Shown: one piece after another, positions 3,889-40,193 of the stretch
How positions within the stretch are numbered: the stretch's first letter is position 1
Layout: each line of letters begins with the position of its first letter
Source: Devosia sp. Root413D1
GTDB taxonomy: Bacteria > Pseudomonadota > Alphaproteobacteria > Rhizobiales > Devosiaceae
NCBI RefSeq assembly: GCF_001425235.1
Contig: NZ_LMEA01000009.1
Coordinates: forward strand, 62,001-126,000
DNA: 64,000 bases
Direction: 5' to 3'
Notes under the pieces: generated by a model
Seen by the model: the letters and a program-made list of their open reading frames with translations, nothing else
Databases searched by the model: none
Told to the model about the DNA's origin: nothing
Translations under genes and position numbers: made by a program

Positions 3889-3998
3889 GACGTCCCCCTG
3901 CAACTGGCACGGATTACCTGTCGACGGCCGCTTGCGCCTTCTGCGTTCATTAGATTTTATCGCGCCGCAAGGGGCAATAATGTCCGCGCTGGAATCGA

Positions 3999-4754
3999 AT
4001 GCTTCCCAAAGTTCTCATCCTCACGCCAGTCAAAGGGGCCGCCCGGCACCTGCCGCGCTACACCGAACTCGTCGAGCAGCTGGATTGGCCTAAAGACCGG
4101 CTGTCAGTCGCCTTGCTGGAAGGCGACAGCAAGGACGGCACCTTTGCCGTCGCCGAGACGCTGCTGCCACGACTGCGCCAGCGGACTCGCAGGGCCGAGC
4201 TGTTCCAGCGCGATTTCGGCTTCAACATCCCCGATGGCGTGCCGCGCTGGGCCCCCGCCTTCCAGCTGATGCGGCGCGCCGTGCTGGCGCGGGCCCGCAA
4301 TCACCTGCTGTTTCGGGCCCTCGATGACGAGGATTGGGTGCTGTGGATCGATGTCGACGTGATCGACTACCCGGCTGACGTGCTGCGCCGGTTGCTGGCG
4401 ACCGGGTTCGATATCGTGGTGCCCAACTGCGTGAAACGACCGGGCGGCAAGACCTTTGACGAGAACAACTGGGCAGCGGAAGGGACCGTGACGCTGTCGG
4501 ACCGCCGGGGCAGCGGCGCCATGCGCCTCGATGCGGTGGGCGGCACCATGCTGCTGGTCCGGGCCGACCTGCACCGGGATGGCCTGGTGTTTCCGTCTTA
4601 CCCTTATGGCGTTGCCAGTGCGCGCATCCGCAGCCGCCACCCGGTCTGGGGCAAGGGCGAGATCGAGACCGAAGGGCTTGGCGCCATGGCGGCCGATATG
4701 GGGATCCAGTGCTGGGGCCTGCCCGACCTCGAGATCATCCACGCCAATGAGTAG
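3999..4754 (+). CDS. GT62 (Anp1-like) putative mannosyltransferase
   Basis: A 251-residue GT-A fold enzyme of the Anp1/Mnn9 type. It shows the ILTPVKGAARHL start, EGDS at 41-44, the metal-binding DVD at 118-120 in WVLWIDVDVIDYP, and the family's late GGTMLLVRADLHRDGLVFP and IETEGLGAMA blocks. In fungi this family extends Golgi mannan; a bacterial member next to a GT71-like gene suggests a mannan-like polymer here (inference). No strong ribosome binding site precedes the ATG. It heads the plus-strand arm of the glycan locus, with a 110-base divergent promoter region before it, and its end overlaps the FkbM gene by eight bases. Confidence 0.8.
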   Translation: MLPKVLILTPVKGAARHLPRYTELVEQLDWPKDRLSVALLEGDSKDGTFAVAETLLPRLRQRTRRAELFQRDFGFNIPDGVPRWAPAFQLMRRAVLARARNHLLFRALDDEDWVLWIDVDVIDYPADVLRRLLATGFDIVVPNCVKRPGGKTFDENNWAAEGTVTLSDRRGSGAMRLDAVGGTMLLVRADLHRDGLVFPSYPYGVASARIRSRHPVWGKGEIETEGLGAMAADMGIQCWGLPDLEIIHANE

Positions 4755-5601
4755 GCTGTTTCGGGGAGCAGCGTCTCCGGTCACGATCGACATGATCGGC
4801 CTGCCGCGCTTCCGGATGGTAACGCATGGCAGAGGCGATATCTTCGTCTCGAGGGTGATCGAGGACTGGGGCAACTGGGAAGCCAGCAATACCGCCCTGC
4901 TGCTGCAGATGCTCGGCCGGCCTGCCGACTTCATCGATATCGGCGCCAATATCGGCTGGTTCACCCTGGTTGCGGCGCACGCCCTCAGCGGACGCGGACA
5001 GGTTCACAGCTTCGAGCCCGACCCCGCCCATCTCGCAAAGCTCCGGGCCAATGTCTCCGCCAATCACCTCGAAAACGTCACCATCAATAGCTGTGCCCTT
5101 TCAGACAGAAATGGTGACGCGCGCCTCTACCTGAACGCGGTCAACCGCGGCGACAACAGCTTGCTGCCGAGCATCGAGAGGTCGGGCTCGACGCTGGTGC
5201 GGCTGCAGCGGCTCGACGACTACGACGGGCTGAGCCGCGAGCGTCCGCTGATCGTCAAGCTCGACGTACAGGGCAGCGAGATCGATGTGCTGATGGGAGC
5301 GCGGACGTTGCTGACCAGCTACCCACATGACGTGGTGCTGTTCTGCGAGGTGTCGCCGTCGGCCCTGGCGGCGGGCGGGCGTCGCACCGCCGAGCTCGCG
5401 GCGCTGCTCGATGAGTTCGACTTTGCCGCGGCCTTTGTCGATCGGGCGCGTCCCCGGATCATCCCGATGAGTTGGCAGCGACTGGTCGACCATCAGGAAG
5501 ACGACAATCGGCGTCACCCGGGCGCGGATTGCGATATAGTCGCCTTCCGTCGGATCGATGGCTTGATGGCACCGATCTTCACAATGCGAGGGACATCGTG
5601 A
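4747..5601 (+). CDS. FkbM-family methyltransferase
   Basis: A 284-residue SAM-dependent methyltransferase. Motif I is FIDIGANIGWFTL at residues 62-74, followed by the acidic SFEPDP loop and, further on, VKLDVQGSEIDVL, a typical FkbM block. The ATG at 4747 overlaps the end of the GT62-like gene and is preferred over an open upstream extension that lies in another frame of that gene. In glycan loci FkbM enzymes usually O-methylate sugars, often to cap or decorate chains; the target here is inferred. It overlaps the epimerase start by four bases (GTGA). Confidence 0.88.
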   Translation: MSRLFRGAASPVTIDMIGLPRFRMVTHGRGDIFVSRVIEDWGNWEASNTALLLQMLGRPADFIDIGANIGWFTLVAAHALSGRGQVHSFEPDPAHLAKLRANVSANHLENVTINSCALSDRNGDARLYLNAVNRGDNSLLPSIERSGSTLVRLQRLDDYDGLSRERPLIVKLDVQGSEIDVLMGARTLLTSYPHDVVLFCEVSPSALAAGGRRTAELAALLDEFDFAAAFVDRARPRIIPMSWQRLVDHQEDDNRRHPGADCDIVAFRRIDGLMAPIFTMRGTS

Positions 5602-6569
5602 CGCGAAAGATACTGGTTCTGGGAGCTGGGGGCTTTATCGGTTCTCATCTGGTTCGCCGGCTGGCGAACGAAGGCAATGAGGTGCACGGCGCCGACCTCA
5701 AGCGGTCCGAGTTCTCGGCTTCGGCCGCCTATCGGTTCATGATCGCCGACCTCCGCGATCCGCTGGCCTGTGCCGAGGTGTTCGACCGGGGCTATGACGA
5801 GGTCTACCAGCTGGCCGCCGATATGGGGGGCGCCGGCTACATCTTCACCGGCGAGAACGACGCGCAGATCATGCGCAACTCGGCAGCGATCAACCTCAAC
5901 GTCGTCGCCGCCTGCGAGCGCACGCGCGCCGGCCGGCTGTTCTATTCCTCTTCCGCCTGCATCTATCCGGCGCGCAACCAGGTCGATCCTGATCACCCCG
6001 ATTGCAGCGAAGACTCGGCCTATCCCGCCGCCCCCGACAGCGAGTACGGCTGGGAAAAGCTGTTCTCGGAGCGGCTCTATCTTGCCCAGGCGCGGAACCA
6101 CGGCATGCTGGCGCGGATCGCCCGCTTTCACAATGTGTTCGGGCCGGAAGGCGCCTGGCGCGGCGGGCGCGAGAAGGCGCCGGCCGCCATCTGCCGCAAG
6201 GTGGCGGAGGCCCGCGACGGCGACGAGATCGAGGTCTGGGGCGACGGCGAGCAGACCCGGTCGTTCCTCTATGTCGATGAGTGTCTCGAGGGCTCCATCC
6301 GCCTGGCGCGCTCCGATGTCACGAGCCCGGTGAATGTCGGCTCGGACGAGATGGTCAGCATCAACCAGCTGGTGGACATGGTGGCGGCGATCGCCGGCAA
6401 GCGACTGTCGAAACGCCACATCTCCGGCCCCACCGGGGTGCGTGGCCGGTCCTCCGACAACCGCTTCATCGAGCAGAGCCTCGGCTGGCGCCCCAGCATG
6501 CCGCTCCGGGCGGGGCTCGAAAAGACCTATGGCTGGATCGAAAGCCAGGCTCACGCCGTCCCTGCCTGA
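5598..6569 (+). CDS. GDP-mannose 3,5-epimerase
   Basis: A 323-residue extended short-chain dehydrogenase with a GTG start overlapping the methyltransferase stop. It has the GAGGFIGSH dinucleotide loop (9-17), QLAADMGGAGYIFTGEND, and YGWEK. Residues C121, K154, K193 and R282 fall at exactly the spacing of the catalytic C145, K178, K217 and R306 known for the plant enzyme, which I take as strong support. The enzyme converts GDP-D-mannose to GDP-L-galactose (and GDP-L-gulose). It therefore likely supplies an L-hexose donor for the neighbouring glycosyltransferases. GDP-mannose synthesis itself is not encoded in the window. Confidence 0.92.
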   Translation: MTRKILVLGAGGFIGSHLVRRLANEGNEVHGADLKRSEFSASAAYRFMIADLRDPLACAEVFDRGYDEVYQLAADMGGAGYIFTGENDAQIMRNSAAINLNVVAACERTRAGRLFYSSSACIYPARNQVDPDHPDCSEDSAYPAAPDSEYGWEKLFSERLYLAQARNHGMLARIARFHNVFGPEGAWRGGREKAPAAICRKVAEARDGDEIEVWGDGEQTRSFLYVDECLEGSIRLARSDVTSPVNVGSDEMVSINQLVDMVAAIAGKRLSKRHISGPTGVRGRSSDNRFIEQSLGWRPSMPLRAGLEKTYGWIESQAHAVPA

Positions 6570-6598
6570 GCCGTCCGACAATCAACGAGGAGCATGAC

Positions 6599-7516
6599 GT
6601 GTCGCTGTCCGATGCTGATCGGCTGATGCTGTTGACCCCCCGCGCCGGCCGGCTGCGGGCGGTGCTCGATACCGACACCTACAACGAGATCGACGACCAG
6701 TATGCGCTGGTCCAGGCAGTGCTGTCGCCTGAGCGGATCGGCCTCGAGGCGATCTATGCCGCCCCGTTCCACAATTCACGTTCCGATGGTCCCGGCCATG
6801 GCATGGAGTTGAGCTATGGCGAGATTCTGGAGTTGTTGCAGCGGCTCGACATCTCGCCCGAGGGCTTTGTTTATCGCGGCGTCAACGACTATGTCGGCCC
6901 GGCCAAGCTCGCCCGACCGGCGGCGGCTGTGGACGACCTGATTGCCCGGGCCCGCGCCGGCTCGATCGATGATCCGCTCTACGTCATCGCCATCGGCGCC
7001 ATCAGCAATGTCGCCTCGGCTTTGCTCAAGGCCCCCGATATCATCGACCGCACCGTCGTCGTCTGGCTCGGCGGGCATGCCCTCGATTGGCCGCACCAGC
7101 GCGAGTTCAATCTGAAGCAGGATGTCGGCGGCGCCCAGGTGCTGTTCGACAGCGGCGTGCCGCTGGTGCTGGTGCCCTGCATGGGCGTCACCTCGCACCT
7201 GCACAGCACGGTGGCCGAGATCGAGCGCTACGTCGAACCCTGCGGCGATATCGGCAAGTTCCTCGCCATGCGGTTCAAGGAGTATTCTGAGGATCACCTC
7301 GGCTGGTCCAAGGAAATCTGGGACATGGCGGCGGTCGCCTGGCTGCTCGATGCCGACTGGACCCCGAGCGTTCTGGTGCCGACGCCGATCCTCACCACCG
7401 AGATCACCTACAGCACCGATCGCGCGCGCCACCCGATGCGCTACGTCACCCATGTCCGCCGCGACCCGATCCTCAGGGACTTTTTCCTGAAGCTGCAGGC
7501 CGCGACGGCGTTGTAG
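6599..7516 (+). CDS. Inosine/uridine-preferring nucleoside hydrolase family
   Basis: A 305-residue protein of the IUNH fold. The calcium and ribose binding signature DTDTYNEIDD lies at residues 24-33; later blocks include YVIAIGAISNVASAL and a NLKQDVGGAQVL stretch. The GTG at 6599 has CGAGGAG six bases upstream, whereas the nearby ATG at 6594 is out of frame. Members hydrolyse the N-glycosidic bond of ribonucleosides; several relatives act on other N-glycosides. It follows the epimerase by 29 bases, so it appears to be the last gene of the glycan operon, an unusual position for a salvage enzyme. Confidence 0.88.
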   Translation: MSLSDADRLMLLTPRAGRLRAVLDTDTYNEIDDQYALVQAVLSPERIGLEAIYAAPFHNSRSDGPGHGMELSYGEILELLQRLDISPEGFVYRGVNDYVGPAKLARPAAAVDDLIARARAGSIDDPLYVIAIGAISNVASALLKAPDIIDRTVVVWLGGHALDWPHQREFNLKQDVGGAQVLFDSGVPLVLVPCMGVTSHLHSTVAEIERYVEPCGDIGKFLAMRFKEYSEDHLGWSKEIWDMAAVAWLLDADWTPSVLVPTPILTTEITYSTDRARHPMRYVTHVRRDPILRDFFLKLQAATAL

Positions 7517-8931: not shown

Positions 8932-9954
8932 CTAGCCCCGGCGCAACAGCGCAAGCACGTCGCCGCTGGCGGTCTGGCCCGGCGTCGGCGCTTCGTTGCG
9001 GTGGAAGTTCACCTGCTGTGGCTGGTACACCTCCTCGAGCTCGGCGCGCTCGGCTGGCGATAGCTCGATGTCGAGCGCGGCGACCGCGTCGGCGATGTGA
9101 TGCGGCTTGGTGGCGCCGACGATCGGCGCGGTGACAGCTGGATTGTCGAGTAACCAGGCGAGAGCAAGCTGCGCCGGCTTCACGCCGCGGCGCTCGGCCA
9201 GCTCCACCACCCGGTCGACCACCGCTTCGTCGGCGGCGCCGAGAAAATCCTGCACCACCTTGGAGCGCTCCGACCCGGCCCGGCGGCTGCCGGCGAGGAG
9301 GCCGCGCGCCAAGGGGCTGTAGGGGATCACCGCGACGCCCTGGTCGAGGCAAAGCGGCAGCATTTCGCGCTCCTCCTCGCGATAGAGCAGGTTGTACTTG
9401 TTCTGCATCGAGACGAACCGGGCGAGCCCGTTGCGCTCGGCGATGCCCTGCAATTTCATGAACTGCCAGGCATGCATGCTGGAGGCGCCCAGATGCAGCA
9501 CCTTGCCGGCGCGCACCAGGCCATCGAGCGCCTCCATCACCTCTTCGAACGGCGTCAGCGGGTCGAGGCGGTGGATCTGGTAGAGGTCGATATAGTCGGT
9601 GCCAAGCCGGCGCAGGCTGTCATCGACGGCGTGCCGGATGTGTTTTCTCGATAGCCCCTTCTGGTTGAGATCGGGGCCCATGGCGCCGAACACTTTCGTC
9701 GCAATGACGACGCGGTCGCGGCCCGTGCCGAAGCGCGTTATGGCACGGCCGAGGATCTCTTCGCTCAGCCCGCTCGAATAGGAGTCGGCGGTATCGAAGA
9801 AGGTGAAGCCCGCTTCGAACGCTGCCCGATAATGCTCCTGCGCGTCCTCCTCGCTCAGCGCCCAAGCCATCCAGTCTTTCGAACCGTAGCTCGAACAGCC
9901 GAAGGCGAGGCGGGACACCTGGATGCCGGTGGTTCCGAGGGGGACATACTGCAT
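8932..9954 (-). CDS. Aldo/keto reductase
   Basis: A 340-residue AKR-family oxidoreductase with D54 and Y59 in FFDTADSYSSG, K87 in IATKVFG and H128 in YQIHRLD as the catalytic tetrad. The ATG at 9954 is preferred because GGAG lies six bases before it; the ATG two codons earlier has that same GGAG directly against it. It is similar in class but not closely similar in sequence to the AKR gene downstream, so a recent duplication is unlikely. Substrate unknown. It is divergent from the organosulfur-type operon, with a 252-base intergenic region between them. Confidence 0.9.
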   Translation of the reverse strand: MQYVPLGTTGIQVSRLAFGCSSYGSKDWMAWALSEEDAQEHYRAAFEAGFTFFDTADSYSSGLSEEILGRAITRFGTGRDRVVIATKVFGAMGPDLNQKGLSRKHIRHAVDDSLRRLGTDYIDLYQIHRLDPLTPFEEVMEALDGLVRAGKVLHLGASSMHAWQFMKLQGIAERNGLARFVSMQNKYNLLYREEEREMLPLCLDQGVAVIPYSPLARGLLAGSRRAGSERSKVVQDFLGAADEAVVDRVVELAERRGVKPAQLALAWLLDNPAVTAPIVGATKPHHIADAVAALDIELSPAERAELEEVYQPQQVNFHRNEAPTPGQTASGDVLALLRRG

Positions 9955-10043
9955 TCTCATCTCCGTGGGCCGCCGCGACCGGGGCGGCGAATATCGTTCG
10001 CGGCGGCCGGGCCCGGCCTAGACGCATACTTCGCGACAGCACC

Positions 10044-10063
10044 GATAATGAGCACGGATTATC
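10044..10063. promoter_or_regulatory. Dyad upstream of the Ssu-like operon
   Basis: GATAAT and ATTATC form a perfect six-base inverted repeat around eight bases. About two bases further is a second small dyad, GTCTA...TAGAC (10066-10084). Both lie in the 252-base divergent region before the SsuC-like gene and are AT-rich against a GC-rich background, so they may be a regulator site or promoter elements. No regulator gene is adjacent. Confidence 0.4.
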
Positions 10064-10206
10064 TTGTCTATGGAATTAGTAGACTTTAGGTTTTGATCAC
10101 CCTGAGAGGCTTGTGAAGCCGGCTCGGCCGTCGACCTTCCTCGCCGCCCAGCCGATTTCATGCGCCGCTCAGGGACCAGTTTCCTGAAGTCGAACGAGGG
10201 TCTCAG

Positions 10207-11037
10207 ATGTCGCTGCAACAACCGACAGCCGATCAGTCAGCGCTGCAGCCCAGCAATCCCGGCCTGTCGCTGCCGCGGCTGAAACTGCCAGTGATCCTCG
10301 TGGCGCAGATCGCCGTGCTTACCGTGGTGCTGCTCGCCGTGCAGCACGCGGTCGATAGCGGCGCGGTCAAGAGCATCTACCTCGCCTCGCCCACCCAGGT
10401 GCTTGCGGCCTTCCCCAAGCTGGTCGAGGAGCAAAATCTCCTCTTCCACCTCTATGTGACGCTCTCGGAAGCGGCGGTCGGCGTCCTGATCGGCGGCGTG
10501 CTCGGCGTCGCCACCGGCATCTACATGGGGCTGTTTCCACGGGTGAACCAGTTCCTCAACCCGTTCCTCGTCTGGGCCATGGCGGTGCCCAAGGTGACCA
10601 TCATCCCGCTGCTGACGCTGTATCTGGGCATCGGCTACGGCCACAAGGTCTTCATCATCTTCCTGTTCTCGTATTTCCTGTTCGTTTTCAACACCATAGC
10701 CGGCATACGGCAAGTCCAGGAAAGTCATGTGAAGGTGGCCAAGACGCTGGGCGCCTCGCACCGGCAGATCGTCTGGAAAGTGATCCTCCCCAGCGCCATC
10801 CCCTCGATCATGGCGGCCGTGCGCATCGAGGCGGCGACCTGTCTCGTCGCGGCCCTGTTCGCCGAAATGGTCGCCTCGAAGGCCGGCCTCGGCAACCTGC
10901 TCAACAAGCTCACCGGCATCTACGACACCGCCGGCACCTTTGCCCTGGTGATCCTCATCACCACCATCTCGCTCATCATCATCTTCCTGGTCGAATGGCT
11001 GGAGAAGCGGGTGCTGCTCAAATGGAAGTACGCCTGA
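10207..11037 (+). CDS. ABC transporter permease, SsuC/TauC-like
   Basis: A 276-residue inner-membrane permease with about six hydrophobic segments. The cytoplasmic coupling loop that contacts the ATPase is visible in VAKTLGASHRQIVWKVILPSAIP, matching the family pattern. It is the first gene of an importer followed by its binding protein and ATPase, the aliphatic sulfonate/taurine/nitrate class. With three flavin-dependent monooxygenases and a sulfurtransferase downstream, uptake of an organosulfur compound is the best inference. The gene has no regulator beside it. Confidence 0.88.
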   Translation: MSLQQPTADQSALQPSNPGLSLPRLKLPVILVAQIAVLTVVLLAVQHAVDSGAVKSIYLASPTQVLAAFPKLVEEQNLLFHLYVTLSEAAVGVLIGGVLGVATGIYMGLFPRVNQFLNPFLVWAMAVPKVTIIPLLTLYLGIGYGHKVFIIFLFSYFLFVFNTIAGIRQVQESHVKVAKTLGASHRQIVWKVILPSAIPSIMAAVRIEAATCLVAALFAEMVASKAGLGNLLNKLTGIYDTAGTFALVILITTISLIIIFLVEWLEKRVLLKWKYA

Positions 11038-11093
11038 CCGGCGCGCTCCCCCTCACTCTCCACACCTGAACCGACTGACGAAAAGGAACTGCC

Positions 11094-12107
11094 ATGCGCA
11101 GGACGAGACCGCATTTTGTCGCCACCCTCCTTGCCGCCGCAGCGTTGGCGCTTGGTCTGAGCGGCACCGCCACGGCGCAGGACGCGCCGGTTCGCAAAAC
11201 CATCAAGCTGCTCGATACGCTGAGCTACACCCAGCAGCCGATCAATTTCGGCATCGAGAAGGGCTTCTTCGAAGAGGAGGGGCTGGATGTCGAGTTCGTC
11301 GCCGCCCAGGACACCGTCGGCGCCGTCGCGACCAACGAGCTGACCTTCGCTTTCGGCCCGACCAGCACGTTCCTCCGCGCTGCGGCGCTCGGCGCGCCGA
11401 TCAAGATCATCGCCTCGGCCTTCCGCAACAAGGGCGCCTTCTGGCTCATCGCCAAGCCCGAGATCAAGACCATCGCCGACTTGAAGGGCAAGACCGTCGG
11501 CATCGCCACCGAGGGCAGCGGAATGGCCGTCTACACCCGGGTGATCCTGCAAAAGAGCGGCATCGACCCGGATAAGGATGTGACCCTGTTCGCCAATGGC
11601 ACCCAGGCCCAGGCTTATGGCACGCTGACCGAGGGCCAGGTCGATGCCACCATCATCCACCAGCCCTTCGCCGCCCTGGGCGAGCTCGAGGGTAAGGCGC
11701 ATGTGCTGGCGCGCGGTTGGGAGTTCCTGCCGACCTATCACACCGGTGTGCTGATTGCCGGCGACGACGTCATCGCCAACGATCCGGAGCTCTTGGAGCG
11801 CGGGCTGCGCGCCTACTTCAAGTCGTACGAATACGCCAAGGCGCATTACGACGAATACATCCCGTGGTTGCAGGCCCGGCTGAAGCTCGACCCCGAGGCG
11901 GTGCGCCAGGCCGTCGAGCAGGAAGATGACATCTGGGAAGACAACCCGGATGTCGATCCGGTCGCCATTGCCGACACCCAGCAGATCGAGATCGAGCAGG
12001 GCAACCAGGACGCTCCCTACGACGCCAGCAAGTACATCGACCTGCGCTTCATCCCCAAAGACTACGTCAAGGCCTTCTCCTATCCGGCCGACAAGTCCCA
12101 GGGCTGA
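11094..12107 (+). CDS. ABC substrate-binding protein, SsuA/NMT1-like
   Basis: A 337-residue periplasmic binding protein with a Sec signal peptide (charged start, hydrophobic core about residues 10-26, cleavage after TATAQ). The mature part has NFGIEKGFFEEEGLDVEFV and ADLKGKTVGIATEGS, the typical NMT1/SsuA core. The Shine-Dalgarno AAAGGAA lies seven bases before the ATG. The C-terminal region is rich in acidic residues (EQEDDIWEDNPD). It sits between permease and ATPase genes, a slightly unusual order. The ligand cannot be read from sequence; sulfonates, sulfate esters or thiophene-type compounds are candidates. Confidence 0.87.
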   Translation: MRRTRPHFVATLLAAAALALGLSGTATAQDAPVRKTIKLLDTLSYTQQPINFGIEKGFFEEEGLDVEFVAAQDTVGAVATNELTFAFGPTSTFLRAAALGAPIKIIASAFRNKGAFWLIAKPEIKTIADLKGKTVGIATEGSGMAVYTRVILQKSGIDPDKDVTLFANGTQAQAYGTLTEGQVDATIIHQPFAALGELEGKAHVLARGWEFLPTYHTGVLIAGDDVIANDPELLERGLRAYFKSYEYAKAHYDEYIPWLQARLKLDPEAVRQAVEQEDDIWEDNPDVDPVAIADTQQIEIEQGNQDAPYDASKYIDLRFIPKDYVKAFSYPADKSQG

Positions 12108-33607: not shown

Positions 33608-34585
33608 GTGGCAATACCAGCGCCGCAGGGCATGTCGGACGAGCAGATGTCGGTGCGCGTCGTCTGGCTCTATTTCATGGAGGGGCGCACCCAGGGCGAG
33701 ATCGCCGATGCCCTCTCCACCAACCGTCTGCGCGTCAACCGCATCATCAGCGAGGCCCGGCGCACCGGTCTCGTCACCATCACGCTCAACTCCAAGCTCG
33801 CCTCATGCGTCGAGCTAGAGCAGCAGCTGATCAAGGCTTTCGGGCTGAAGCGCGCCATCATCGTTCCCACCCCCGAGGATTCGGCGCTGGTGCCGGTGCT
33901 GCTGGGGCAGGCGACGGCCGATTATGTCGGCCAGTTGCTCGCCGATGGCACCATGACCGGGGTCGGCGTCGGCTGGGGCACCACCCTGCGCGAAACGGTG
34001 CGGCACATGCCCTCGCTGAAGCGCCCCGAGCTGCTGGTCAACTCGGTGATGGGCGGGCTGACCCGCGGCATCGAGATCAACACCTTCGACATTGCCGGCG
34101 ATCTTGCGCGGCACCTCGGCGCCGATTGCGCTTATCTGGCCGCCCCGATCTATGCCGGCAGCCCGCAATCGCACGACGCCATCATGACGCAGGACGTGTT
34201 CCAGGAGGCGTTCGAGCGGATCGGCCGCAACGACCTGATCCTCCTGACCATCGGCGATATGACCGAGCGCTCGCTGCTGATGCGCTATGGCCTGCCGCGC
34301 GACGTCACCATCGACGAGCTGGTGGCATCAGGCGCCGTGGGCGACGTGATGGCCCAGTTCGTCGATGCCGCCGGCCAGCCCATCGACCACCCGATCAACC
34401 GCCGCGCCATCGCCCTGCCGCTCGAAGCCTTGCGCAAGGTGCCCAACGTGGTGTTCGCCTCAGGCGGCGCCAACAAAACCCACGCCATCGCCGCCGTGCT
34501 GCGTTCGGGGCTGGGGAGTGCGCTCGTGTGCGATGAGGCGACGGCTCGGGCGGCGATGGGGATTGCGCTGGGGGCGGTGGGGTAA
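33608..34585 (+). CDS. SorC-family sugar-responsive regulator
   Basis: A 325-residue regulator. The N-terminal helix-turn-helix is in FMEGRTQGEIADALSTNRLRVNRIISEAR; the rest is the SorC sugar-phosphate-binding domain, with GVGWGTTLRETV and the late FASGGANKTHAIAAVLRSG block. Such proteins sense phosphorylated sugars. The GTG at 33608 has GAGGGCGAGGG upstream; an ATG eight codons later is possible. It is divergent from the Ugp/ribitol operon and most likely controls it, perhaps in response to ribulose or ribitol phosphate (inference). Confidence 0.9.
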   Translation: MAIPAPQGMSDEQMSVRVVWLYFMEGRTQGEIADALSTNRLRVNRIISEARRTGLVTITLNSKLASCVELEQQLIKAFGLKRAIIVPTPEDSALVPVLLGQATADYVGQLLADGTMTGVGVGWGTTLRETVRHMPSLKRPELLVNSVMGGLTRGIEINTFDIAGDLARHLGADCAYLAAPIYAGSPQSHDAIMTQDVFQEAFERIGRNDLILLTIGDMTERSLLMRYGLPRDVTIDELVASGAVGDVMAQFVDAAGQPIDHPINRRAIALPLEALRKVPNVVFASGGANKTHAIAAVLRSGLGSALVCDEATARAAMGIALGAVG

Positions 34586-35157
34586 GTCCGCCAGGGGGAG
34601 TGCTCTTAAGCCGATCGCATGGAGGGCGTTTCACTATTGAGCCTTGTAGGACGGCTCTGACCCCGACACGGGCGATTCTCACGACAGCGGGAACCTCTCC
34701 TTTCTGGCGCCAAGGGCAACGATCCGCGACTGGCGATGACCGTCGGACTGCCGGCGCCGGAGCTACAGATGGCGGTGATCGATGCGGTGCATCCGGGGCG
34801 TTTGAGGGAGCAAGTCGTTCGGCGGACCCGGAGCTTCGGAGTTGTGGCAAGTTGCAGGACTGGCACACAGGCCGACGGCAGTCCGCGGTAGAAGCAAGCC
34901 GCTGCTTCACCGTGATCGGGTGTTTCGAGCGGGCCATCCCGCATTAGCAAAGTGAGCACGACCAACGTGTGAACCGACCGCCACCGTGCAACCTGCCGTT
35001 TCTCTTTCCATCAGGTAAGTTGCGCGAGGACGACCCTTTATGCACCCACGGTCACCTTCCCGCACCAACACTGCTGGACGGTAACAACGCGAGCCGCCGT
35101 TGACGCAGCCCAATACCAGCCGCATAACACTACGCCAATGCTAAAGGGGGGTGTGTA
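34586..35157. other. Gene-poor stretch at left edge of atypical island
   Basis: These 572 bases hold no convincing gene. Short open frames exist on both strands, for example one of about 52 codons from 34734, but none has a recognised domain or good ribosome binding site; some could be remnants. Base composition begins to shift toward lower GC near the right end. No tRNA, integrase or clear direct repeat was seen that would define an attachment site. Confidence 0.5.
35100..35128 (+). promoter_or_regulatory. Putative promoter of the AIPR gene
   Basis: TTGACG at 35100-35105 and CATAAC at 35123-35128 are separated by 17 bases, a good fit to a housekeeping sigma-70 promoter. The start codon of the AIPR gene lies 30 bases further, preceded by an AGGGGGG ribosome binding site. 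Confidence 0.55.
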
Positions 35158-36855
35158 GTGGAAGATCAGGTACTTAACGCGTATCTTCGCGATTTTTCTC
35201 AGTCATTCGACCTGTCGGATCTGAGTGAGGCTAGTGCATTCGAGTATTTTTCCGCTTACTGCGTGTTCTTTAGAGATTTTTCAGAGAACACCGTCCTTGA
35301 GGATATGGTCGTATCGGGCGGGCTGGACACGGCAATAGATGCCGCTGGTATTTTCCTAAACGATATTAGTGTGACCACGTCGGCTCAGGTTGACGAAATT
35401 GCTACGAGGCAGCGCGTGGACGCAGACTTTGTCTTCGTTCAGTCCAAAACAAGCAGATCGCTCAACGCCGCCGAGATTGGCAGCTTCGTTCAAGGCGTAA
35501 GAGAATTTTTCTCAGAGCGACACATGCCGACAAACGAGGATATAGCCGAGCGCCGCGAACTGTCGGATCACGTCTTCACAAAGAGTGTTCGGATGCGGGC
35601 CAAACCGAGGCTGCATTTATACTACGCGTATGGCGGATCGTTCAAGAGCGATCCGAACATCGTGGCAAGAGTAACATCTGGCACCAACGACCTCAAAAGA
35701 TTGAATCTATTCTCCGAAGTTAATTTCACGTTCCTGGACGCGAATAAACTTCAAGAACGGTATCAAGAAGTCAATCTGCGGATCGAGAAGGAGATACAGA
35801 TCAATGAATATGCATCGTTACCTGCGATCCAAGGCATACGACAGGCCTATATTGGGGTGTTGCCGTGTCTCGAGCTTGTGAATTTGCTTTCAAATTCGGA
35901 TGGAAAGCTACAGAAATCTCTGTTCAATGAGAATGTGAGAGACTTTCTGAGCAGAAATCCAGTAAACGACGAAATAGCTGAGACGATAAAGTCCAAAACG
36001 AACCAAGGTAGATTGGCCGCCTTAAATAACGGCATTACAATAGTCGCGAGAGACATCAGGATAATTGGGAAGAAATTCACCCTAAGCGATTTTCAGATCG
36101 TCAATGGCTGCCAGACTAGTCACATAATTTTCGAGAATCAACATCATCTTCAAGCAGACACCTCGATAGCCGTAAAGATTATTGAAGCCGAGGACAGGGA
36201 GTTGGTCAACGAGATCGTCCGAGCAACGAACCGGCAGACTGAGGTGAAGGACGAGGCATTTGTGGTGTTGGCCGACTTTCACAAAAGACTGGAACGCTTC
36301 TTTTGGAGCATGGATTCTGACGCGGCGTATAAATTGGTATATGAGCGCAGAAAAAGGCAATATGCGGACTCGACATTCACGGCCGCCAATATTGTTACGC
36401 TAACGTCTTTGACCAACAGTTTTGTTAGTTGTGTGCTGGAGAATCCTGTCGACGCCGTCGATTATTATGGGGTTCTGCTTCATCGATATCAGGATGGGAT
36501 ATACCAGAACGATCACTCGTTATGGTCGTATCTTGTGGCGGCGACCGTTCTTAGAGAAATTGAGAAGCTCTGTGTTGGAAAGAACCGACCAAGTCTTTGG
36601 AAGTTCCGCTTCATCATAGCATTGATGGTTCGTCAGAGTTTCGGCAAACTCCCGCCATTGCAAAACGACAGGTCTCAGAAGGCGTATGCAGACGAGGCCC
36701 TTAAGGTGGTCAGGAATAGGAGAGAGTTCACCCGTCGAGTCGAGGCTGTCGAATTGCAGCTAGCAAACGCAATCCTAGCCCAAGGGCCTCAGTTTGATAA
36801 ACGTAACGCCCATCAAGATCGCCGGTTCGTGGATAGCCTCATTGCCACTCCGTAG
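35158..36855 (+). CDS. AIPR-family abortive infection protein
   Basis: A 565-residue protein with a GTG start and an AGGGGGG ribosome binding site. The AIPR family core is clear: NNGITIVA at 290-297, DFQIVNGCQTS at 311-321 and ATNRQTEVKDEAF at 356-368. The N-terminal part has G-L-D57-T-A-I-D61 and FVFVQSKTS with Q95 and K97, a pattern like the D...QxK site of restriction-endonuclease-like nucleases. The family is named from phage abortive infection. Base use is clearly AT-richer than the flanks (27 of 60 G+C in the first line versus 41 of 60 in a SorC line), indicating transfer. It is followed by a HEPN-motif gene on the same strand. Confidence 0.88.
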   Translation: MEDQVLNAYLRDFSQSFDLSDLSEASAFEYFSAYCVFFRDFSENTVLEDMVVSGGLDTAIDAAGIFLNDISVTTSAQVDEIATRQRVDADFVFVQSKTSRSLNAAEIGSFVQGVREFFSERHMPTNEDIAERRELSDHVFTKSVRMRAKPRLHLYYAYGGSFKSDPNIVARVTSGTNDLKRLNLFSEVNFTFLDANKLQERYQEVNLRIEKEIQINEYASLPAIQGIRQAYIGVLPCLELVNLLSNSDGKLQKSLFNENVRDFLSRNPVNDEIAETIKSKTNQGRLAALNNGITIVARDIRIIGKKFTLSDFQIVNGCQTSHIIFENQHHLQADTSIAVKIIEAEDRELVNEIVRATNRQTEVKDEAFVVLADFHKRLERFFWSMDSDAAYKLVYERRKRQYADSTFTAANIVTLTSLTNSFVSCVLENPVDAVDYYGVLLHRYQDGIYQNDHSLWSYLVAATVLREIEKLCVGKNRPSLWKFRFIIALMVRQSFGKLPPLQNDRSQKAYADEALKVVRNRREFTRRVEAVELQLANAILAQGPQFDKRNAHQDRRFVDSLIATP

Positions 36856-36964
36856 TTCGCAGCGGAGGTGGCCGCCAACGTACTATCCCGTCCGCGACGA
36901 GTCGGCGTAGCGATCTGCGCCGATATCGTTGCGGTTGGAACCAAAGAATTGTCACGGCGCCCTG

Positions 36965-38290
36965 ATGTCGCAAGCAAGCACTGAACGCCAATGTGTTGAA
37001 CTCCTACTGGCATCCATCACGGCGCGCATGGGCGACGATGGCCTTCGTGCCGCATTCATGTTTGGTCCGCCTGGCTCTCAAAGTTGGGAGCGAAACATGG
37101 GAACTGAGCTTTACTACCACGCCAGGGAGCTGACACTTGCTTGCCTCTATCTTCGCAGGCATGGACCTCCCTATCTTCGCGCGCTTCCAATGGAGCGGAT
37201 ATGGGGGCTCCTCCAGGGCTTTATTGCCGAGAACTATTGGCATCTCTTCGACGAGACATGGGCGAAGCCATTTGACGGGACCTACGCGGATCACGTTTCT
37301 GCATCGACCAAAGATATTTTGGCTAGGCAGCTGGCGGCGTCGTTGATCTTCAGGCCTGTGGCGGAGTTAACTCTCTACCCCCTCGTCCCTGTCCAGGTAA
37401 AGGCGGCCTTTAGATCGGAGCCTTTTTCAGTTGTTTCGCCCTCAACGCTCGTGAGGGGTGAGATACCGACTGAACTAGAGCGCTGGGTAGAGCCGGATGC
37501 GTTTCCTCCGCTGACCGACTGGAAAGGTCGCCGTGATGTCGGAGTTTCCAGTTGGCTTGCTGTCCGTTCGCCCGTAGAGGATGCTGCTGACAAGGTCAGA
37601 GCAGCAATACTCGGTGCAATCGCCCTTACGCCACTTCCCATGTATACTTACCTGTTCTCTGGGAGACGCATCTTTGGCGGCCGGTGTACGATTACAGGAG
37701 ATGGTGGGGCCACAACGTCATTTAGCGCTGGTCACACCCCTCCCCTGATGCACGATATTGTCGTCACCGAGGCTGACCACGCCTGGCTCTCGATGCTAGC
37801 AGAAAAGTTAGGTTCGAACACCAAGACAGCACGGCGAGAACTGCGTTCCCTAGAGTACTTCTATCGAGCATGGCCGTTGGGCAAATCAGAGAGATTTCCG
37901 ATCCTGTGCATGGCACTCGACGCGGTTTTTGGCGATGCGAACGGAGCTACTCAGGCGGTAATCGACGGTATCCAAGTAGCCCTCGGTAGTCATGTGCCGG
38001 ACGCACGTCTACGACGACTGATGAGCCTGCGTGCCGCCGTCATCCATGGCGGAGCGCCCGACGTCTACGACTCCAGCAAGTACGCAGAATACTACTCAGA
38101 GTACGCTGTCGACCCAATCTATGACCTCGAACTGATCACGGCGGCATGCCTGCGAGCGAGGGTGTTCAATGGTGCTCTCGTTCCTCACTCCGATCCGAAT
38201 GGGGAGATCGTTCACGAACATCAAAAGGCCGGGCGCCTTCCAAAGCAGTATCTCCGGCCAAGCATTCTAGACGTTGCTGGTACGCCGTAG
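36965..38290 (+). CDS. Unrecognised protein with C-terminal HEPN-like R-x4-H motif
   Basis: A 441-residue cytoplasmic protein without a family name I can give. The C-terminal third reads like an ApeA-type HEPN domain: FPILCMALDAVFGD, then SLRAAVIHGG with R356 and H361 forming the R-x4-H RNase motif, followed by a tyrosine-rich YAEYYSEYAVDP segment. The first 300 residues are mixed and contain no motif I know. The ATG at 36965 is chosen by codon use; a TTG twelve codons earlier is possible and no good ribosome binding site is seen. It lies 109 bases after the AIPR gene in the same island, so a joint defence role is likely but inferred. Confidence 0.65.
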   Translation: MSQASTERQCVELLLASITARMGDDGLRAAFMFGPPGSQSWERNMGTELYYHARELTLACLYLRRHGPPYLRALPMERIWGLLQGFIAENYWHLFDETWAKPFDGTYADHVSASTKDILARQLAASLIFRPVAELTLYPLVPVQVKAAFRSEPFSVVSPSTLVRGEIPTELERWVEPDAFPPLTDWKGRRDVGVSSWLAVRSPVEDAADKVRAAILGAIALTPLPMYTYLFSGRRIFGGRCTITGDGGATTSFSAGHTPPLMHDIVVTEADHAWLSMLAEKLGSNTKTARRELRSLEYFYRAWPLGKSERFPILCMALDAVFGDANGATQAVIDGIQVALGSHVPDARLRRLMSLRAAVIHGGAPDVYDSSKYAEYYSEYAVDPIYDLELITAACLRARVFNGALVPHSDPNGEIVHEHQKAGRLPKQYLRPSILDVAGTP

Positions 38291-38387
38291 TATTAAGTGC
38301 GTGGCACCCAATGCTGCCACTGGCTAAATCTCGTGTGGGGCGTGGCCAGCTATTGCTCGCGAGTTCGTCGGGAATCGAAAGCCGCCC

Positions 38388-40193
38388 TCACTCATCCCCC
38401 ATCTTCAGCGCCTTGATAAACGCTTCCTGCGGGATCTCGACGCTGCCGAACTGGCGCATCTTTTTCTTGCCCGCCTTCTGCTTCTCGAGCAGTTTCCGCT
38501 TACGGGTCGCGTCGCCGCCATAGCACTTCGCCGTCACGTCCTTGCGCATGGCGCGCACGGTTTCGCGGGCGATGATCTTGCCGCCGATGGCGGCCTGGAT
38601 CGGGATCACGAACAGGTGCGGCGGGATCAGGTCCTTGAGCTTTTCGCACATGATGCGGCCGCGCGTTTCGGCGACATTGCGGTGCACCAGCATCGAAAGC
38701 GCGTCGACCGGCTCGGCATTGACCAGGATCGAGAGCTTCACCAGGTCGCCCTCGCGGTAATCGGCGAGCGTATAGTCGAAGCTGGCATAACCCTTCGAGA
38801 TCGACTTCAGCCGATCGTAGAAATCGAACACCACTTCGTTGAGCGGCAGGTCATACTCGACCATGGCGCGGTTGCCGACATAGGTCATGTTGCGCTGGAT
38901 GCCGCGCCGATCCTGGCAGAGTTTCAGGATCGAGCCGAGATACTCGTCGGGGGTGAGGATGGTGGCCTTGATCCACGGCTCGCTGATGTGGTCGATGCGC
39001 ACCACGTCCGGCAGGTCGGCCGGGTTGTGCAGCATCAGCACCTCGCCATTGGTGAGGTGCACCTCGTAGACCACCGATGGCGCGGTGGCGATCAGATCAA
39101 GGTTGAACTCGCGGCTCAGCCGTTCCTGGATGATTTCGAGGTGCAAAAGCCCGAGAAAGCCGCAGCGGAAGCCGAAGCCGAGAGCCGCCGAGGTTTCCAT
39201 CTCGTAGCTGAAGCTCGCGTCGTTGAGCCGGAGCTTGCCCATGGCAGCGCGCAGCTCCTCGAAATCCGAGGCGTCGACCGGGAACAAGCCGCAGAACACG
39301 ACCGGCTGCGCCGGGCGGAAGCCGGGGAAGGCGCTGGCCGTCGGGCGGCGATCGTCGGTGATGGTGTCGCCGACATTGGTATCGGCCACTTCCTTGATCG
39401 AGGCGGTGAAAAAGCCGATCTCGCCGGGGCCGAGTTCGCTGATATCGACGAGTTTGGGGGTGAACACGCCGACGCGGTCGAGCTCGTAGGCCGCGTTGGC
39501 GTTCATCATCCGGATCTTCTGGCCCTTCTTCACCGTGCCATCGATGACGCGGATCAGCACCACGACGCCGAGATAGGTGTCGTACCAGCTGTCGACCAGC
39601 AGCGCCTTCAGCGGCGCGTTGATATCGCCCTTGGGCGCCGGCAGGCGCTCGACGATGGCTTCCAGCACCTTGTCGATGTTGAGGCCCGACTTGGCGGAAA
39701 TCTCCACTGCGTCCGAGGCATCGATGCCGATCACATCCTCGATCTGCTGCTTGACGCGCGGGATATCGGCGGCCGGCAGGTCGATCTTGTTGAGCACGGT
39801 CACCAACTCATGGTTGGCATCCATGGCGTGGTAGACATTGGCGAGGGTCTGCGCCTCGACGCCCTGGCTGGCATCGACGACCAGCAGCGAGCCCTCGACG
39901 GCGGCCAGCGACCGGCTGACCTCATAGGCGAAGTCGACATGGCCGGGCGTGTCGATCAGGTTGAGGATATAGGTCTCGCCGTCGGTGTGCTTGTAGGTCA
40001 GCCGGACGGTCTGCGCCTTGATGGTGATGCCGCGCTCACGCTCGATATCCATCGAGTCGAGCACCTGCTCCTTCATCTCGCGCAGCTCGAGGCCGCCCGT
40101 GAGCTGGATCAGCCGATCGGCGAGCGTCGATTTGCCATGGTCGATATGGGCGACGATGGAGAAGTTGCGAATATGGTCGAGCGGTACGGACAT
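38388..40193 (-). CDS. lepA: Elongation factor 4 (LepA)
   Basis: A 601-residue translational GTPase of the usual length. The P-loop is AHIDHGKST (15-23), G2/G3 lie in [11 protein letters not shown] and DTPGHVDF, G4 is NKID. The C-terminal part has the LepA-specific domain with [18 protein letters not shown] and the basic end [20 protein letters not shown]. It acts on stalled or mistranslocated ribosomes. It is a core chromosomal gene and marks the right boundary of the atypical island. Confidence 0.98.

Follow-up and report, generated by a model that had tools for sequence, protein, structure and literature searches.

Gene content and base composition of the SorC–lepA interval

The analysed window, a 64,000 nt stretch of the Devosia sp. 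Root413D1 genome, contains two same-strand genes (here gene A and gene B) located between the gene for a SorC-family regulator and the core gene lepA. The initial annotation had placed an AIPR gene followed by a 441-residue gene at this position, and the open reading frames, their order and their strand were borne out, as were the flanking genes, since Pfam recognised a SorC-type sugar-binding domain on one side and LepA on the other. The features are as follows:

33608..34585, + strand: SorC-family transcriptional regulator, flanking the exchange site on the left (Pfam Sugar-bind, E 3.7e-58)
34586..35157, no strand: left boundary region of the island (similarity to SorC remnants in two relatives stops at 34582 and 34599)
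35158..36855, + strand: gene A, AIPR/AbiU1-like, 565 aa, GTG start (Pfam PF10592, PADLOC AbiU PDLC02357, motif conservation)
36965..38290, + strand: gene B, 441 aa from ATG, unnamed family, candidate HEPN-type RNase (R356/H361 invariance, relatives at 42–46% identity)
38030..38047, + strand: codons of R356-A-A-V-I-H361, candidate RNase motif (computed from the ATG at 36965)
38291..38387, no strand: right boundary of the island (similarity to the nine loci compared from the same genus runs out at the lepA stop, 38381–38392)
38388..40193, − strand: lepA, core gene, flanking the exchange site on the right (Pfam LepA_C, E 1.1e-48)

The gap between the genes is 109 nt, or 73 nt when counted from an alternative in-frame TTG start of gene B at 36929, which would give a protein of 453 aa. 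Both genes are AT-richer than their flanks, as had been noted from sampled lines, with a GC content of 0.481 for gene A and 0.565 for gene B, compared with 0.675 for SorC, 0.626 for lepA and 0.655 for the window. Their GC3 values (0.55 and 0.58, respectively) lie below those of the other listed frames, six of which (some probably spurious) are at 0.64–0.72 and the rest at 0.76–0.92. By this alien composition genes A and B constitute a probably foreign island, and as their GC contents also differ from each other, they perhaps have different sources. Promoter and terminator scans of the gene pair gave site counts no higher than shuffled sequence, while a repeat search of positions 34500–38500 returned two weak two-copy families, and inverted repeats and terminal repeats were not found. 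No integrase or transposase adjoining the island was seen on inspection of the frame listing by eye.

Gene A belongs to the AIPR/AbiU family

Judged by its profile matches, gene A is a member of the AIPR/AbiU family and so is related to a gene known for phage resistance. Residues 256–437 match the Pfam AIPR domain (PF10592, E 1.5e-38, 133.7 bits against a cut-off of 25), and residues 2–508 match PADLOC AbiU (PDLC02357, E 2.2e-115, 384.8 bits). The nuclease-like D...QxK N-terminus previously proposed is present as D61...Q95-x-K97, with D61 and Q95 invariant in 14/14 aligned AIPR proteins, but K97 kept in only 10 and replaced in 4 of the 14 (counted by hand on the alignment). We read this as a putative PD-(D/E)xK nuclease motif, whereas the available part of PMC3506569 assigns to AIPR proteins an N-terminal HEPN domain, and not a PD-(D/E)xK domain.

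Weak matches of gene A to MzaE were also obtained (NCBIfam E 1e-9, PADLOC E 5e-7), and an identity as MzaE was rejected, as the NCBIfam equivalog score is 37.5 bits where the cut-off is 1050. The MZA system shares with this locus the AIPR domain of MzaE, but differs in that gene A scores far under the MzaE cut-off and that no other MZA components were seen beside gene A by eye.

Gene B represents an unnamed family with an invariant R-x4-H motif

Gene B was initially considered unrecognised, and this was upheld by the absence of matches in Pfam (none below E 0.2), NCBIfam, PADLOC and the PDB sequences (none up to E 10). The C-terminal R-x4-H seen at that time also proved well founded, as R356 and H361 are invariant in 8/8 aligned members of the family, down to 20% identity. 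H361 is the sole invariant His in this alignment, which has three invariant Arg; with three invariant Arg and one invariant His placed randomly, an R-x4-6-H pair arose by chance in 2% of draws. Directly after the R, most members have a small residue (A, G or S). With gene B, the candidate defence RNases gain an as yet unnamed family in which the R-x4-H is strictly conserved.

The distribution of gene B is patchy, being absent from 60 relatives and present in 5/397 genomes of the order, a count that includes the window's own, and it was not found in phages and viral contigs. Among the titles and passages surveyed in open-licence PMC literature on AbiU, AIPR, HEPN and lepA-hotspot topics, none describes it. 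Relatives of gene B were located near a UvrD and OLD-like pair (L002), near a protein of 1740 aa whose STAND/NACHT matches all stay below threshold (L003) and 1.1 kb from an AAA_21 ATPase gene (L022), and an N-terminal fragment of a relative follows a TIR/bSEFIR gene (L006). At three further loci (L005, L020 and L021) no clear defence neighbour was seen by eye.

Gene B as a possible HEPN-type ribonuclease

The R356-x4-H361 pair, present in all eight members, corresponds to the conserved Rx4-6H motif of the HEPN superfamily, whose fold has four helices with the motif closing helix 3. AlphaFold2 models (five rows each) had a pLDDT of 70.2 for the whole protein and 71.8 for the C-terminal 230 residues; a predicted helix at 346–361 ends with the motif, and the next helices are at 371–380 and 384–400 (pLDDT block means 74–91). 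According to the available text of PMC3710099, the HEPN motif ends one helix and precedes the next. On these predictions gene B may be a HEPN-type ribonuclease, its motif lying where the HEPN active site would be.

The likeness to ApeA suggested in the initial annotation fared less well. ApeA-type HEPN proteins (PF18739, some with ApeA_NTD1, PF18862) resemble gene B in their length, large N-terminal region, C-terminal R-x4-H and, as judged by eye, a comparable succession of helices, but none of the eight gene B members matched the HEPN_Apea or ApeA NTD profiles. A hmmscan of these members at E up to 10 gave three irrelevant weak matches in Pfam (best 0.093) without any HEPN domain, and none in PADLOC, and three Foldseek searches with the gene B models returned no match at E 0.001 or better. 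In hhalign, the probability for whole-length gene B was 0.5% to ApeA-type HEPN and 0.3% to AbiU2, no better than the 0.3% to an unrelated control, and C-terminal slices gave 0.1–0.9% against 0.3–1.1% for control slices, although local alignments to the ApeA slice were roughly in motif register at a score that is not significant. The hhalign result says little, however, because the same comparison also failed between ApeA-type HEPN and Lactococcus AbiU2 (0.1%), both accepted HEPN families.

Gene B might alternatively be a defence protein outside the HEPN superfamily, with an R-x4-H that is structural or part of another helical domain. The missing HEPN profile match in any member, the control-level hhalign values and the lack of Foldseek matches for either model fit this, as does the A, G or S after the R, where HEPN proteins usually carry a polar residue (mostly N, D or H) according to the available part of PMC3710099. 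The full conservation of R356 and H361, the latter without any other invariant His, and the HEPN-like placement of the motif at a helix end with a further helix behind it speak against such a protein, and the hhalign negative carries little weight in its favour; we consider it unlikely.

Genes A and B were not found together at the other loci sampled

The pair had been put forward as an undescribed two-component anti-phage system, in which one protein senses or cuts DNA and the other degrades RNA. The novelty holds only in part: the probably foreign island with a defence gene and an otherwise unrecognised gene B stands, but the AIPR half is PADLOC AbiU, and AIPR with HEPN is the known AbiU1/AbiU2 layout. 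AbiU is made up of abiU1 and abiU2 (PMC3985639, available part), and AbiU2 is listed as a HEPN family retaining the Rx4-6H motif in the accessible text of PMC3710099. This layout was found on a Lactococcus plasmid (L013), where, as in the window, an AIPR gene is followed by a same-strand gene for an R-x4-H protein; gene A shares the family through its PADLOC AbiU and Pfam AIPR matches. In contrast to gene B, the lactococcal partner matches HEPN_AbiU2 (E 3e-8), and the Lactococcus AIPR protein is 23% identical to gene A. Gene B did not match PF18734 (HEPN_AbiU2) and is not recognisably AbiU2, and Lactococcus AbiU2 as phmmer query had no match in any other locus scanned.

The lactococcal precedent, together with the shared strand and short gap that fit an operon, would allow for a two-gene AbiU-type system in which a HEPN partner has replaced AbiU2 and both proteins act jointly, by DNA sensing or cutting and by RNA cutting. 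The profile searches do not agree with this, as AIPR was absent at 8/8 gene B loci outside the window and gene B was absent at 69/69 AIPR loci, within flanks as sampled, which for several AIPR loci are short; locus L004 is just 3.8 kb in all. Homologues of gene B were never beside an AIPR gene in the loci sampled, an outcome that the initial annotation had itself named as speaking against its proposal, and the two-component system was not supported, although a rare pairing could be missed because just eight gene B loci were found. With the absent AbiU2 match and the difference in base composition (0.481 versus 0.565) also opposing it, we regard a joint system as rather unlikely. A bolder version, that gene B founds a new, sparse HEPN-type defence RNase family which here substitutes for AbiU2 beside an AbiU1-like AIPR nuclease, such that AIPR proteins would work with interchangeable, unrelated RNase effectors, appears more doubtful still.

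The lepA 3′ end as a recurrent site of defence modules

The firmer finding concerns the site: next to the 3′ end of lepA, defence modules seem to be exchanged within the genus. The lepA gene was detected in 19/19 genomes of the genus, and nine of these carry defence-type modules at its 3′ end, no two of which share similar proteins (blastp E 1e-3). In two relatives, other modules are flanked by what is left of the SorC C-terminus. Low-GC blocks were present in 8/18 lepA flanks versus 0/12 control flanks (p 0.01, or 0.02 when the window's own genome is left out and 0.04 when all 13 controls are included, in each case uncorrected for kinship). None of the titles and passages surveyed in open-licence PMC literature on lepA-hotspot and defence-island topics described a lepA defence hotspot, and lepA in PMC9122126 is an author name.

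A comparable arrangement is the psu-int hotspot of P4 satellites, a single slot holding different defence modules across related genomes, with cargo that includes HEPN systems and with AIPR in the abbreviation list of a figure (PMC9122126, available part). Unlike psu-int, the lepA slot lies between convergent chromosomal genes, with neither an integrase or transposase seen nor terminal repeats. The lepA 3′ end provides an address that can be mined, since unfamiliar genes at this position in further strains make good candidates for anti-phage systems not yet described.

The site also bears on whether gene B is cargo unrelated to defence, carried beside a defence gene, as the three relatives without a clear defence neighbour might suggest. 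Against this stand its position at a site used by defence-type modules in nine of 19 genomes and its sparse, patchy spread, which is as expected of defence genes; we consider this the least probable of the alternatives.

Putative roles of two neighbouring modules

The reading that we favour, with modest confidence, is that genes A and B are two separately acquired single-gene defence modules, lying side by side in a recurrent SorC–lepA exchange site. This is based on the AbiU/AIPR match of gene A, the separate occurrence of the two genes, their different GC contents and the different modules that the site holds in relatives, and is also backed by the defence-like genes adjoining the gene B relatives at L002, L003, L006 and L022; the shared strand and 109 nt gap count against it, since these also fit an operon. 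For gene A, motif and family suggest that the PD-(D/E)xK-like N-terminus is probably what cuts nucleic acid, with the AIPR domain probably setting the timing. For gene B, motif and helix order suggest a candidate HEPN-type RNase in which the N-terminal 200–260 residues would sense infection and the C-terminal R-x4-H would then cleave RNA of the host or the phage. The locus also offers a way to test if AbiU1-type AIPR proteins act alone or need an RNase partner.

Composition and borders of the island

The initial annotation had placed an AT-rich two-gene island between a SorC-family regulator gene and lepA, and this was sound, as both genes and their composition were confirmed:

33608–34585, SorC-family regulator gene, left flank
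35158–36855, + strand, gene A, AIPR/AbiU1-like, 565 aa
36965 (ATG) to 38290 (stop), + strand, gene B, unnamed family, 441 aa
38388–40193, − strand, lepA core gene, right flank, convergent with genes A and B

The G+C content was 48.1% for gene A and 56.5% for gene B, versus 67.5% for SorC, 62.6% for lepA and 65.5% for the window, and GC3 was 0.55 and 0.58, respectively, versus 0.64–0.72 for six other listed window frames (some probably spurious) and 0.76–0.92 for the remainder. None of the 103 overlapping 4.5-kb window stretches outside the island contained a 1-kb block of ≤58% GC. Based on this low G+C and GC3 relative to the window, and the lack of similar blocks outside the island, genes A and B are probably of foreign origin, while their difference in composition hints at different sources. 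No integrase or transposase was seen by eye among the frames neighbouring the island, nor did a repeat search find a terminal repeat flanking it.

The lepA 3′ flank as an apparent exchange site for defence-type modules

In a first alignment with the window, homology to nine same-genus loci stopped at 38381–38392, at the lepA stop codon, with short matches only beyond it (66 bp in locus L086 and, in L087, 75 bp that duplicate the end of lepA). The lepA 3′ flank was subsequently read in 19 genomes of the genus (one flank being just 0.8 kb), and candidate genes, picked by eye for low GC or telling sequence, were searched with Pfam and PADLOC. Nine of the 19 genomes carried a defence-type module at this position, and no similar proteins were found between any two of the nine modules (blastp, E 1e-3).

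Table. Defence-type modules at the lepA 3′ flank, by genome
Own genome (G000): AbiU and gene B
G011: DUF2326 and ABC-3C CTD12 pair
G003: NsnC and partial NsnB, at contig end
G001: DarT and DarG
G010: NsnA/GmrSD_N protein with RiboL-PSP HEPN protein
G017: AAA_21/OLD-like protein
G014: type ISP restriction-modification enzyme
G013: SIR2-like PDC-S65 protein
G015: PD-Lambda-2_B-like M78 protein

G003 and G010 could nevertheless carry components of a single named system (Nsn). In three further genomes (G004, G006 and G018) the flank encoded an HNH_2 protein of unremarkable GC, related among the three (59–66% identical), and in the remaining seven no candidate was chosen by eye, which left their genes outside the Pfam/PADLOC scan. 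The nine flanks with defence-type modules are window 38291–38387 and those in loci L086, L087, L089, L092, L159, L160, L161 and L163.

In G013 and G014 (loci L160 and L161), a C-terminal SorC remnant adjoins the module, with the best pieces 94–96% identical and one G014 piece 60%, and this homology ends at window positions 34582 and 34599. Since SorC is reduced to its C-terminal part in these loci, the exchange site has its left border at the SorC 3′ end, and both borders are thus common to three genomes with three different modules in between.

In 8/18 genomes (the 0.8-kb flank was dropped), a 1-kb block of ≤58% GC lay no more than 4.5 kb from the lepA stop, with G013 narrowly missing the cut-off at 0.582. 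Controls were 13 flanks 3′ of two other window genes, named by eye as a THUMP-type methyltransferase (hit in 11 genomes, of which 10 were used, the G003 flank being too short) and a lipid kinase (3/7 genomes, the other four either falling in the region of the first control or standing at the end of a contig). A single control flank (1/13) contained a low-GC block, that of G001, which runs into the lepA module. The p values serve as a guide only, as the genomes are related: Fisher p was 0.010 without G001 (0/12 control flanks versus 8/18 lepA flanks), 0.045 with all 13 controls kept, and 0.023 without the window's own genome (7/17 versus 0/11). The differing modules are the stronger argument. 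Defence-type modules appear to be exchanged at the lepA 3′ end, and this hotspot is the more useful result. Genes plausibly accumulate at this position because the space separating two convergent genes tolerates insertions and because conserved flanks permit exchange by homologous recombination. The 3′ ends of polA, next to which lie a distant AIPR gene in the window's genome and a gene-B relative in another genome, may form a second site of this kind.

Gene A is an AbiU protein gene

Gene A is of a known kind, AbiU: its product scores against Pfam AIPR at E 1.5e-38 and, over residues 2–508, against the PADLOC AbiU model at E 2.2e-115, with MzaE (MZA system) as a weak second match (37.5 bits versus a cut-off of 1050). 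Across 14 aligned AIPR proteins, D61 and Q95 were invariant, as were NNG (290–292), VNG-x-Q (315–319) and N-x-Q (358–360), and K97 was retained in 10/14 by hand count. We infer that D...QxK may represent a PD-(D/E)xK-type active site, and infection would probably release this putative AIPR-controlled nuclease. Relatives were found in 64 plasmid records, at 51 loci on viral contigs and in 27/297 genomes of the order, a count that includes the window's own and many partial matches. The window's genome has a second, distant AIPR gene (27% identity), adjoining the 3′ end of polA (identified by Pfam) and convergent with it (L061 5505–7271; G000:C9:278510–280114).

Genes A and B as two probably separate genes

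One profile per family was compared with open frames of ≥60 aa from the window, eight gene-B loci and 69 AIPR loci (51 on viral contigs, 12 genomic and six on plasmids), with flanks of uneven and sometimes short length. The AIPR profile matched 69/69 AIPR and 0/8 gene-B loci, and the gene-B profile 8/8 gene-B and 0/69 AIPR loci, leaving the window as the sole locus matching both. A plasmid of Lactococcus cremoris (L013) carries an AbiU1/AbiU2-type pair, AIPR (3917–5686) followed by HEPN_AbiU2 (5944–6969). The available text of PMC3985639 describes AbiU as abiU1 plus abiU2, and reports that when genes of two-component Abi systems from lactococci, including abiU2, were cloned in E. coli, growth was inhibited by AbiEii alone. 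The layout of genes A and B is similar, but gene B could not be recognised as AbiU2 by profile search or profile comparison. Since no other scanned locus matches both profiles and gene B is not recognisably AbiU2, these sequence comparisons favour two separate genes. The two-component system proposed initially is unsupported so far, and of the candidate undescribed system the AIPR half proved to be known, while gene B does belong to an unnamed family.

Gene B as a candidate HEPN protein

Gene B had neither a curated family match nor a sequence relative in PDB. In its 8-row alignment R356 and H361 were both invariant, H361 being the sole invariant histidine, and an R-x4-6-H spacing is expected in 2% of draws under random placement; judged by sequence, gene B represents a family that has no name but whose motif is promising. 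In two predicted models the motif ends helix 346–361, before the next helices, which agrees with the available description in a survey of the HEPN superfamily, where the motif lies at a helix end before the next helix (PMC3710099). The motif noted initially was upheld in 8/8 members, but the other tests were negative or lacked power: a HEPN profile match was found in 0/8, profile-profile comparison with HEPN families gave control-level scores, and searches of PDB and BFVD yielded no structure significantly similar to the models. The profile-profile method also missed the link between two accepted HEPN families. A HEPN protein is a candidate identity and our leading idea rather than a result. 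By analogy with HEPN effectors, an N-terminal sensor region would probably free a C-terminal R-x4-H ribonuclease, halting the infected cell.

Gene B was absent from 60 relatives of the window's genome, and in 385 genomes of the class the window's own gene was the sole match. Four relatives came from a scan of GTDB genomes. Among 397 genomes of the order, four others contained relatives; one of these, locus L014, sits on a contig equal in length to that of L005 and is almost certainly the same record, which leaves three new ones. In a phylum sample (398 genomes) the matches were the window's own, the L014 genome and two discounted 30-residue matches (E 6e-4 to 8e-4). An N-terminal fragment is present on a Croceicoccus plasmid (L006), where an annotated gene for an IS256 transposase extends over its end; a TIR/bSEFIR gene (5105–6375) also overlaps the fragment by a few bases. 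Another relative (L021 7454–8713) starts ~17 bp past polA, and the most distant one (L022 7183–8610; 20% identity, motif retained) is divergent from an AAA_21 ATPase gene (9755–11560) ~1.1 kb away.
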